Source: Tsukamurella paurometabola DSM 20162
GTDB taxonomy: Bacteria; Actinomycetota; Actinomycetes; Mycobacteriales; Mycobacteriaceae
Reading direction: 5' to 3'
DNA: 64,000 bases
Assembly (NCBI RefSeq): GCF_000092225.1
Contig: NC_014158.1
Span: 3,162,001 to 3,226,000, forward strand
Numbering within the stretch: the first letter of the stretch is position 1; each line of letters begins with the position of its first letter. Positions 36,282 to 57,718 of this stretch are shown here, one piece after another. Both the position numbers and the translations under genes were made by a program. The notes beneath the pieces are model-generated. The model worked only from the letters and a program-made list of their open reading frames with translations, did no database searches and was not told the DNA's origin.

Positions 36282-36911
36282 TCATTGCCGCCCGACGCGA
36301 GAGGAGAGCTCGGCGAGACCGGAACCGGTCAGCTCGGCCAGGGCGATGGTGCGGCCGCTCACTGCGAGCAGCAGCGCCAGCGTGTGTCCGGCGACCTCCG
36401 CACCGTCGCCGAACACGAGATCCGAATCGTCGGCGACGAGGCGCAGGCCCGTGAGGTGTTGTTTGGCACCGCCCATCGCCGTGCTGGTGCGGGCCTGCAG
36501 TCGCAGCGCGCGAATGACGGCCCAGAGGGGGTAGTCGCCGATCGCACCGAGGGGCCGTCGGATGTCCTCACCGTGCACGATCGCCTCGACCAGCCGCGTA
36601 TCGAGCGGTGCGGGCGGGGTGGCGGTCGCGTCCGCCACCGCACGGAAGGCGGCGAGCATCTGCGCGGCGGTACCGCGCTCCCGCTCGACACCGTTCAGAT
36701 TGTCTCGGTCGAAGTCGAATCGAGCCGTGATCATCCCGCGCACGAAGCCGAGTCGGGTGGTCTTCGCGGTGGAGATCTGGTGTGCCGTCACATCGCGCAC
36801 GCTCCACCCCGGGCAGAGCGACGGGGTGTCCCAGCGGGATTCGTCGACGGTGGAGAGGAAGTCGATGAGTGCGCGCCGTTCGGCGTGCACCATGGGCCAG
36901 ACGTCGGACAT
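36282..36911 (-). CDS. Maleylpyruvate isomerase family / mycothiol-dependent DinB-like protein (TIGR03083)
   Basis: A 209-residue protein starting MSDVWPMVHAERRALIDFL behind AAGGGAG. The N-terminal DinB-like bundle has LCPGWSVRDVTAHQISTA, whose histidine is one metal ligand, and VEAIVHGEDIRRPLG, which supplies others. The C-terminal SCP2-like part ends FGDGAEVAGHTLALLLAVSG. Many members use or conjugate mycothiol, but the specific reaction is unknown. Confidence 0.82.
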   Translation of the reverse strand: MSDVWPMVHAERRALIDFLSTVDESRWDTPSLCPGWSVRDVTAHQISTAKTTRLGFVRGMITARFDFDRDNLNGVERERGTAAQMLAAFRAVADATATPPAPLDTRLVEAIVHGEDIRRPLGAIGDYPLWAVIRALRLQARTSTAMGGAKQHLTGLRLVADDSDLVFGDGAEVAGHTLALLLAVSGRTIALAELTGSGLAELSSRVGRQ

Positions 36912-54741: not shown

Positions 54742-55626
54742 GTGCGGGCTGCCAGAGTCGAAGGCGTGAACACCAGCTCGCCCCACCTCGACTTCGACCG
54801 GTGCTACCGGGCGATCGCCGGCCGGGATGCTCGATTCGATGGGCAGTTCTACACCGCCGTCGCCACCACCGGCATCTACTGCCGCCCCTCCTGCCCGGCC
54901 ACCACACCGAAGCGGGAGAACGTGAGCTTCCACCTCACCGCGGCCGCCGCCCAATCGGAGGGCTACCGCGCGTGCCGACGCTGCCTCCCCGATGCCGTGC
55001 CCGGATCACCGCGGTGGAACCTCGAATCCGACCTCGCCGCACGGGCCATGCGACTCATCGCCGACGGCACCGTCGACCGCGCCGGCGTACCCGGGCTCGC
55101 CGAGCGGTTGGGATACAGCCCCCGACAACTGAGCCGCGTGCTCACCGCCGAGCTCGGCGCCGGCCCGCTCGCGCTCGCCCGGGCGCACCGCGCCACCACC
55201 GCCCGCATCCTCATCCAGGGCTCGGCGATGTCCTTCTCCGACATCGCTTTCGCTGCCGGTTTCTCCTCGATCCGCCAGTTCAACGACACCATCCGGGAGG
55301 TCTTCGCCCGCACACCGTCGCAACTGCGCGCAGCCGGCAGGGGCGCTCCGCCCGGAACCGGCGAACTCACCTTGCGGCTGGCCCTCCGCGGTCCGTACGC
55401 CGCGAGCTGGGTGCGCTGGTTCCTCACTGCTCACGCGGTGCCCGGGCTCGAGCACGCCGACGGTGACCGCTACACCCGGGTACTCAACCTGCCCGGCGGC
55501 CACGGCATCGCCACCATCGATCTGTCCACCGCCCCGGACGGATTCGTCCGCGCCACCCTGGTGCTGGCCACGATGAGCGATCTGTCGGTGGCGGTGACCC
55601 GGCTACGGCACCTCCTCGACCCCTAA
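54742..55626 (+). pseudogene. alkA: AdaA-AlkA fusion gene, 5' fragment cut by IS110 element
   Basis: The N-terminal part of the mycobacterial-type AlkA (AdaA-AlkA fusion). The Ada metal-binding domain has GIYCRPSCPA and ACRRC (four zinc cysteines), followed by an AraC-type helix-turn-helix (DIAFAAGFSSIRQFNDTI) and the start of the AlkA N-terminal domain (LRLALRGPYAASWVRWF). The reading frame ends in LLDP and a TAA supplied by the insertion. TAGCGT at 54730-54735 just before the GTG fits a leaderless start. The fragment may still make a truncated regulator-like protein but lacks the glycosylase. Confidence 0.88.
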
Positions 55627-55629
55627 GTT

Positions 55630-55805
55630 GGTCTTGTCCGGGATCTACTCCCGGACGGCCCAGGTGGGTGGGATTGACTTACCTCCTTCTGCCACAGTTA
55701 CGGCTTGCCCAGAACGGTTCGCCCACCCGCCTGTGGTCACCTTGACCGCTAATTGAGATCCGCTGCGAAGATGATCCGCTGCTTAGGGAAATGCTGCGGC
55801 TGGGT
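55630..55805 (+). ncRNA. Predicted IS110 bridge RNA
   Basis: The left noncoding end folds into a hairpin (55636-55656, 8-bp stem) and then a long stem (55661-55672 with 55722-55733, 12 bp, one G-U pair) closing a loop with candidate target guides: TTGACTT (55674-55680) or ACCTCCT (55681-55687) on the left and GCCCAG (55707-55712) on the right. Next come donor-guide candidates: ATTGAGAT (55752-55759), identical to 57098-57105 at the right end, and CTTAGGGAA (55782-55790), complementary to the abutted ends TT+CCCTAAG. Order and position match the bridge RNA of IS621. Exact RNA ends are estimated. Confidence 0.65.
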
Positions 55806-55828
55806 GAACCTCGGGCCGCCCTCGACCA

Positions 55829-57061
55829 ATGAGCGGAGAGCGAATAGTGCAACCGATTTACGTCGGCGTCGACATCGGAAAGCGGTTTCACCACGCGTGC
55901 GTCATCGACGCTACGGGAAGCGTTCTGCTGAGCAGGCAGGTGCTCAACAGCGAGAGCGACTTGAACGCGATCGCCGCCGAAGTCGAACGGCAAGCTGAAG
56001 GTGCAGCGGTTTGGGTGATCGACGTTGTCTCGGAGATCTCGGCGCTGTTGCTGGCGATCCTCGCCGCACGTGAGGTTGCCCATGTGGTGCGGTATGTACC
56101 GGGCGCGGCCGTATCGGCGATGTCGAAATCCTTTGTCGGTGAGGGTAAAACCGACGCCAGAGACGCGAAGGTTATCGCGGAGCTCGGTCGCCTACGACGA
56201 TCTCTGAGGACAGTGTCTCTGCGTGATGATGCGACAGCGGCATTGACAACGCTGACTTCCTATCGATCTGACCTAGCCGCAGAGTGGGTCGCCAACATCA
56301 ACAGGCTCCGCGCAATCCTGACCAGTATCTTTCCTGGTCTGGAACAGCAGCTTGACCTGTCGACCAAATTCCCGCTGATCCTCGTCTCGATGTTCTGCAC
56401 GCCCACCGCCGTGATCGAGGCCGGCGAAAAGGGCGTCCACGAGGCTTTGCTGACCGCCGGGGTCTACCGGAACTCCGCTGCACGCCTAGCCGCGGCCGCG
56501 ATGGAGTCGGCCAGGCATCAATCCGTTCGTGGAGCTGGAGAGAGTGATATCGCAGCTCTTACAATGCGATTGGCCTCCCGGCTGCTGTTGCTTCTCGATG
56601 AACGGAAGCTGCTCGACAAGCAGATCGCTGAGTTGTTCCGACAGCATCGCCATGCTGCCCTGATTGAGTCGATTCCAGGACTCGGACCGCAACTCGGCGC
56701 CGAGCTATTGGTCTGTCTCAACGGTGATATCCGGAACTTTGCCAACGCCGGCAAACTCGCCTCTTACGCTGGTTTGGTGCCGGTCCCGCGCGATTCAGGC
56801 CGAATATCGGGGAACATGCGTCGGCCGCGCCGCTACAATCGAAGATTGCGTCGTGTCTTCTACCTCGCGGCCATGACCAGCCTGAAAGACCCCGATAGTA
56901 GGTCGCGCCAGTATTACGACCGAAAACGATCGGAGAATCGCACGCATACGCAGGCGACACTGGCGCTCGCGCGCCGTCAAGTTGATGTCCTGTGGGCGGT
57001 ACTACGCGACGAGCGCCCTTACACCGGGGCCGCGCCGGAGGGCGCCGTCATGGCCGCTTGA
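55829..57061 (+). CDS. IS110-family transposase (bridge-RNA-guided DEDD recombinase)
   Basis: A 410-residue protein. The N-terminal RuvC-like DEDD domain begins YVGVDIGKRFHHACVID with the first aspartate and has the later KTDARDAKVIAELGR box. The C-terminal Transposase_20 domain reads IESIPGLGPQLGAELL, then FANAGKLASYAGLVPVPRDS, which holds the conserved serine region. Both halves are complete, with no frameshift or stop, so it may be active. A GTG at 55847 is an alternative start. The upstream noncoding segment is where the guiding RNA of this family is encoded. Confidence 0.93.
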   Translation: MSGERIVQPIYVGVDIGKRFHHACVIDATGSVLLSRQVLNSESDLNAIAAEVERQAEGAAVWVIDVVSEISALLLAILAAREVAHVVRYVPGAAVSAMSKSFVGEGKTDARDAKVIAELGRLRRSLRTVSLRDDATAALTTLTSYRSDLAAEWVANINRLRAILTSIFPGLEQQLDLSTKFPLILVSMFCTPTAVIEAGEKGVHEALLTAGVYRNSAARLAAAAMESARHQSVRGAGESDIAALTMRLASRLLLLLDERKLLDKQIAELFRQHRHAALIESIPGLGPQLGAELLVCLNGDIRNFANAGKLASYAGLVPVPRDSGRISGNMRRPRRYNRRLRRVFYLAAMTSLKDPDSRSRQYYDRKRSENRTHTQATLALARRQVDVLWAVLRDERPYTGAAPEGAVMAA

Positions 57062-57106
57062 GGTCAAGTGGATCGTCCTGCCCGGGTTGACAACGTCATT
57101 GAGATT

Positions 57107-57718
57107 CTGGACGCCGATCCGCTCACCGTCGATGAGGCGCTCTCCACCGACCCGCGGCTCGCGCCACTGGTCGCGGCCACGCCCGGAATCCGGCTGTTCG
57201 GCTGCGTGGACCCAGCGGAACTGCTGCTCCGCACCATGATCGGGCAACAGATCTCCATCGCCGCGGCCACCACCCACCAGGCGCGGCTCGTCGAGGCACT
57301 GGGCGAGCCGGTCGACGACCCCACCGGACGCGTGAGCCGGGCCTTCCCCTCGCCCGCCGTCGTGGCCGAGCGCGGTCACGAGGTGCTCACCGGCCCCCGG
57401 GCACGCGTGACGGCGATCCGATCGGTCGCCGTGGAGATCGCCGAGGGACGGCTCACCCTGCACCCCGGCATGACCCGCGCGGAGGCCCGCGACGTGCTGC
57501 TACGCCTCTCGGGCGTCGGTCCGTGGACCGCCGACTACGTGGCCATGCGGCTGCTCGCTGATCCCGACACCCTGCTCTCGTCCGATCTCGTGGTGGCCAA
57601 AGGCGCCGCCGCGCTCGACCTCGACATCGCGACCAACCACTGGAGCCCCTGGGGCAGCTACGTCTCACTGCACCTGTGGAACCACTCCCTCACCACCGAC
57701 CGGAGGATCACCCCGTGA
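57107..57718 (+). pseudogene. alkA: AdaA-AlkA fusion gene, 3' fragment (glycosylase domain)
   Basis: The remainder of alkA: LDADPLTVDEALSTDPRLAP, then the helix-hairpin-helix glycosylase core LRTMIGQQISIAAATTHQAR and LLRLSGVGPWTADYVAMRLL, with the catalytic aspartate expected in LLSSDLVVAKG. In-frame starts exist at 57068 inside the insertion, so a separate glycosylase fragment might be translated, but it would lack the N-terminal part of the AlkA fold. The stop overlaps the ogt GTG by 4 bp, so ogt was originally coupled to alkA. Confidence 0.88.

Follow-up and report, generated by a model that had tools for sequence, protein, structure and literature searches.

The left end of an IS110-group insertion sequence in Tsukamurella paurometabola DSM 20162 very probably encodes an IS110-type bridge RNA with the donor and target guides assigned below, this being the best explanation of the evidence as a whole. 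The window analysed is a stretch of 64,000 nucleotides (NC_014158.1, positions 3,162,001 to 3,226,000), in which the 1486-bp element occupies 55621-57106 on the plus strand, inside an ada-alkA fusion gene. The original prediction had read a bridge RNA here, and further copies, relatives and covariation support that reading. Sequence comparison establishes the element limits, the homology of the RNA, the covariation of its target stem, and the correspondence of guides with target, of guides with donor and of the handshake bases with the element end; from these we infer transcription of the RNA, a circular form, pairing in the cell and catalysis. Weighing against this explanation are the poor in-register fit of the left guide at the window copy, the unequal second core base of target and donor, the barely predicted donor-loop stem, the aspartate that seems to stand for IS621 E60 and the single, low-scoring Rfam match. 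IS110 bridge RNAs, or seekRNAs, have been described since 2024 in the parts of the reports available (PMC11208160, PMC11208158, PMC11187229), and the window element belongs to this already described kind and is ordinary in kind.

The element, its recombinase and its copies

The locus is uninterrupted in all 15 congeners examined, so that the insert is exactly 55621-57106 and arrived without target duplication. The genome searched for further copies consists of contigs of 4,379,918 and 99,806 bases. It holds three copies of the element, identical (100%) in recombinase and left end and differing in their flanks: copy A in the window (55621-57106, +), copy B at C1:880876-882313 on the minus strand, and copy C with its left end from C1:280456 and its ORF to 283237. 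Joining the flanks of copy B restores one open frame, and the congener locus L226 aligns ungapped over the junction; insertion without target duplication was found at this site as at site A. Copy C is interrupted by a 1340-bp insert (L036 2643-3982, C1 near 280642-281981) with two ORFs, IS3-like by eye, which lies just 3' of the right donor guide and splits the RNA part from the recombinase gene. Seven further IS110 copies in the same genome belong to two other types, one with three copies (L004-L006) and one with four (L007-L010), and both types have readable guides of their own.

The recombinase, of 410 aa (55829-57061, +), was recognized through Pfam, NCBIfam and IS621 structure-chain matches. 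It combines an N-terminal DEDD RuvC-like domain with a C-terminal Transposase_20 domain (Pfam DEDD_Tnp_IS110, 5.6e-42; Transposase_20, 9.6e-23) and scores 225 bits against NCBIfam NF033542, 'IS110 family RNA-guided transposase', for which the cut-off is 140. Its sequence is related to those of the IS621 and ISCro4 recombinases, whose structures have been solved, and residues 249-400 match the IS621 chain 8wt6 at 6.4e-12. By eye, S323 appears to align with the serine of the IS621 Tnp domain, and D109 and D112 appear aligned with its KTD..DA motif in a stretch that scores only 2.7 bits; the position of IS621 E60 seems to be an aspartate, numbered D65 by eye. At E 1e-150 the recombinase was found in its own genome only, among 16 genomes of the genus; at E 1e-120 three other genomes among 401 of the family carry it, at 51-52% identity, and a first scan of the wider genome-contig collection returned no close recombinase relatives. 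The E-type recombinase at E 1e-200 was also confined to its own genome among the 401. Plasmid relatives of the element were left out of further comparison.

The predicted bridge RNA and its guides

The 208-nt left end folds better than all 200 of its shuffles (z −3.12), and its segment 55627-55800 gives z −2.49, equalled by 4 of 200 shuffles; a single-sequence fold is not decisive. The original prediction had proposed an 8-bp hairpin and a 12-bp stem, and both hold on re-reading. The 5' hairpin of the predicted RNA (55636-55656, +) is a perfect 8-bp stem that lies outside the covariance model, and the target-binding-loop stem (55661-55672 pairing with 55722-55733, +) consists of 11 Watson-Crick pairs and one G-U pair. 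Within this loop an inner hairpin with a GCC/GGC stem (55691-55704, +) separates the two target guides.

A covariance model built from 21 other elements matches the left end at 55659-55789 with 60.2 bits (E 1.6e-15). The next match in the window, at 36326-36411 on the minus strand, reaches 13.1 bits (E 0.06) and is probably due to chance. Over the whole genome at E 0.001 the model finds ten places, which are the ten IS110 copies; seven of them belong to two types in the model, which leaves the three copies of the window element as the only independent matches. Covariation in the stems had been named as a check, and the homologue of the 12-bp stem does covary across the 21 relatives. The 19 pairs of the target-loop helices are formed in 96.0% of cells as against 83.0% after shuffling, and double changes occur in 10 of the 19 pairs against 6.0 in shuffled data (0 of 500 shuffles as good). 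This signal vanishes when the pairing partner is slid. The donor-loop stem is barely predicted in the consensus fold. Rfam contains no family at gathering score for the left end, its single match having 18.2 bits against 46.6.

The target guides correspond to both strands of the insertion site, and the donor guides to the abutted element ends. The left target guide is ACCTCCTTC (55681-55689, +), which directly precedes the inner hairpin and has the letters of the top strand of the left target; it is itself complementary to a Shine-Dalgarno-like sequence. At the window insertion the left target is ACCTCCTCGAC (55610-55620, +), located by the flanks of the copies and by empty sites. The last letters of the left flanks are cacctcctcgac in copy A, cacctccctc in B and cacctccttc in C. 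The guide matches the flank of copy C at 9 of 9 positions and that of copy B at 8 of 9, whereas against copy A it matches 3 of 9 in register and 7 of 9 only when slid two bases to the left. The identity of ACCTCCT at 55681-55687 and 55610-55616, which had been recorded without a role, holds and represents the actual match of the left guide, displaced from register by two bases.

The left target guide had been placed instead at TTGACTT (55674-55680), which faces the window target TCGACCT with five identical and two wobble positions of seven. The other copies make this assignment highly improbable. At the same positions in B and C, TTGACTT has only two identities and three wobbles of seven, against the 8 of 9 and 9 of 9 of ACCTCCTTC, and the guides of relatives occupy the nine nucleotides just before the inner hairpin. 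We therefore replace TTGACTT by ACCTCCTTC, on the strength of copies B and C.

On the right side the earlier assignment of GCCCAG (55707-55712, +), the complement of CTGGGC, stands. The right target at the window insertion is CTGGAC (57107-57112, +), again located by the flanks of copies and by empty sites. Right flanks start with CTGGAC (A), CTGGGG (B) and CTGGGC (C), which the guide complements at five, five and six of six positions, respectively. GCCCAG arises 1763 times in 20,000 mononucleotide shuffles of the 208 nt and has little weight alone. It is followed by the handshake bases AA (55713-55714, +), complementary to TT, the last two bases of the right end. Among relatives the handshake complements the last two right-end bases in 21 of 23 guide types, with none of 20,000 permutations as good, and the agreement spans TT, AT, GT and CT ends; when the right guide is placed by best match rather than by alignment column, it holds at 29 of 35 sites.

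The donor guides were also read correctly at the outset. The left donor guide ATTGAGAT (55752-55759, +) equals the right end at 57098-57105 and occurs once in the 208 nt, at 55752. The right donor guide CTTAGGG (55782-55788, +) is the complement of the left end CCCTAAG (55621-55627), and the longer CTTAGGGAA (55782-55790) is the exact reverse complement of TT (57105-57106) joined to CCCTAAG. ATTGAGAT and CTTAGGGAA arise 18 and 8 times, respectively, in 20,000 mononucleotide shuffles of the 208 nt. Across relatives the right donor guide exactly complements the first six left-end bases in 21 of 22 readable types, with four sequence variants; G231 is an exception with one mismatch, and L187 was left unaligned. 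The column pairs of left end and donor guide show double changes among relatives.

Homologous copies at other sites had been proposed as a check, and their flanks match their guides. The right-end pattern TTGACANNNTCATTGAGA is present in 26 of 401 family genomes, its own included, and its reversed control had no match in the 401. The genomes with the pattern, four loci from the wider genome contigs and the own genome make up a set of 35 sites with 23 guide types, in which the guide 9-mers were placed by hand from the alignment. Thirty-six regions were fetched and 21 used, the remaining 15 having no readable left end, being cut by contig ends or duplicating another site (L216); of at least 118 loci in the wider genome contigs four were used, the left end being unread in the others. 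In register 0 a guide matches its own left flank at 5.31 of 9 positions, against 2.81 for other guides, a difference equalled in 0 of 20,000 permutations; these, like the other permutations given here, ignore the kinship of the elements. The covariance model has matches in 75 of the 401 family genomes, which gave 66 distinct pairs of guide and flank. With the best of registers −2 to 2, these score 7.12 against 4.60 (0 of 3,000 permutations), a result that is not independent of the right-donor-guide rule, since the junctions of the enlarged set were placed by it. Of 60 further regions taken for this set, four were without a junction and 22 were left outside the 66 pairs; of the latter, 18 (11 distinct flanks) were read separately and L312, L337, L338 and L297 were unused. 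Some sites with a common guide may represent one ancestral insertion.

The ORF begins immediately after the left end, and the left end includes the terminus of the element, as would befit an mRNA leader of the recombinase or a recombination site bound by protein in place of a guide RNA. The relatives leave that reading very little room: the loop letters track the flanks of each element while paired changes keep the stem, and a leader or protein site would have no reason to copy flanks.

Register of the left target guide

The two-base offset of copy A has milder counterparts among relatives. Twelve of the 35 sites match at 4 of 9 positions or fewer in register 0, and in register 1 the same twelve score 5.92 against 2.94 (0 of 5,000 permutations). 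Registers 2 and 3 were equalled by 585 and 4107 of 5,000 permutations and are not significant, which leaves the one-base shift as the only one with support as a class. Over all 35 sites, registers 1-3 give a modest signal (290 of 20,000). Five multi-copy families, with 17 sites, each have one site that matches best off register; together these five score 6.6 against 4.27 (3 of 20,000), a figure flattered by their choice after the scores had been seen. The off-register site of the E family, L008, matches at only 5 of 9 positions.

Among the 66 pairs the best register is 0 in 31, +1 in 20, −1 in five and +2 in one, the window copy; nine are unclear. Twelve guides in this set occur with at least two distinct flanks, and in six of them the registers are mixed. 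L333 and L322, which have a guide 9-mer in common, match it at 9 of 9 positions in register 0 and 8 of 9 in register +1, respectively. A thirteenth family has 11 distinct flanks, nine at −2 (one of them with a guide that differs by one base), one at −1 and one (L287) without a match; of the letters matched at −2, two lie within the element itself. Mixed registers thus occur in seven of 13 guide types with several sites, and mostly by one base. The target of the family to which L287 belongs (ACAATCA) is strongly kept, yet the flank of L287 matches the guide in none of the four registers tested.

Register differences between guide types may come partly from guide placement; differences within one guide cannot. 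The left guide is probably also usable when shifted by one base relative to the exchange point, and that of the window copy, on which the two-base shift rests, was perhaps used with a shift of two. We lean, by a small degree, towards a general form of this reading: in this actinobacterial clade of IS110 elements one RNA would serve target sites whose left half is set off from the right half by 0, 1 or, in the window copy, 2 additional bases, the left RNA-DNA duplex sliding and the right guide and the handshake fixing the joint. It is doubtful, though still quite conceivable, that the shifts have another origin, the right guide having been mainly responsible for the choice of a site with a poorly matched left half, or the flanks having been altered later. 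In keeping with such an origin, the CACCTCCT-like stretch at the window copy belongs to host coding sequence that congeners share, so that chance could account for part of the shifted match. The 585 of 5,000 permutations for register 2 as a class, the 290 of 20,000 for registers 1-3 and the flank of L287 point the same way. It accounts poorly, however, for the twelve sites that fit so much better one base away, for the five off-register sites, post hoc as their choice was, and for the single 9-mer matched by L333 and L322 in adjacent registers. In the literature searched, including the available parts of PMC11208160, PMC11208158 and PMC11187229, no report of a shifting left guide was found; one may exist in print.

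Exchange point and relation to known systems

At base −1 all three copies have C in the target on the left and T in the donor on the right, and at base +2 they have C in the donor on the left and T in the target on the right. To judge from these letters, the strands are exchanged either just to the left or just to the right of the C common to target and donor. A core at +1/+2, CT in the target and CC in the donor, each matched by its own right-hand guide, is more likely. A core at −2/−1 was considered, as it would give IS621-like left guides of 9 and 8 nt and NT cores in the donors; at −2/−1, however, target and donor letters often differ, by eye, and the dinucleotide next to the right guide agrees with the donor rather than the target.

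The element ends also carry the halves of a putative promoter. TTGACA at the right end (57087-57092, +) resembles a −35 box and TAAGTT at the left end (55624-55629, +) a −10 box, and they form a sigma-70-like pair with a 17-nt spacer only when the ends abut. A promoter scan of the linear sequence 55400-57300 gave one promoter-like site, inside the ORF at 56536-56565 (0.3 expected). Excision would join the ends into a circle and so create the TTGACA-17-TAAGTT promoter, which would drive the RNA and the recombinase. The second loop of the RNA would then pair with the abutted ends through ATTGAGAT and CTTAGGG, and the recombinase would exchange strands beside the single common C. The fixed right guide and the handshake bases would set the joint, and the left duplex may slide.

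In the available text of PMC11208160 and PMC11208158, IS621 has the plan found here: a left end that is noncoding and precedes the gene of a RuvC-like/Tnp recombinase, one loop with the left and right target guides and a second with the left and right donor guides, a left guide read against the bottom strand and a right guide against the top strand, a junction promoter (here a putative one) and handshake bases 3' of the right target guide. By the same accounts the IS621 guides include a CT core present in target and donor, whereas here the target has CT and the donor CC, and the left target guide stops at −1, short of the core, in a register that seems to vary from copy to copy. A single CT core lying within the guides was absent in all three copies. 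Of the original label 'IS621 type', the IS110 group is thus retained, and the single CT core of target and donor and a left target guide that includes the core are not. The spacing of the IS900 target is variable (N4-6) in older work. IS900 of Mycobacterium avium subsp. paratuberculosis, an IS110-family element of 1451 bp, has the target motif CATGNNNNNNTCTCCTT, laid out as here, according to the portion of PMC8141618 available, in which a guide RNA is not a subject. Some of the relatives compared here likewise show CATG to the left of the insertion and CCTCCT or CCTTTC to its right. The flanks of L190, L195, L196, L202, L208, L212 and L109 resemble antisense start-codon/Shine-Dalgarno regions and the IS900 motif, the left side having CATG or CAT and the right side CCTCCT- or CTCCT-like letters. 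The ISEc21, or IS110-type, seekRNA, as described in the part of PMC11187229 available, also has a noncoding region upstream of the gene, a circle with a promoter (here predicted), no target duplication and two stretches matching the top and bottom target strands; ISEc21 is a different element with a different target and is likened here by description rather than alignment.

The element presents a naturally programmed recombinase for which three sites are available, the original site is confirmed and all four guides have been assigned; comparison of its three copies within a single genome reveals the letters that select the insertion site. The handshake idea receives an independent check from nature in the match between right end and handshake, seen in 21 of 23 guide types. 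If the register of the left guide does slide, rules for programming these recombinases and for predicting their off-targets must allow for a movable left half.
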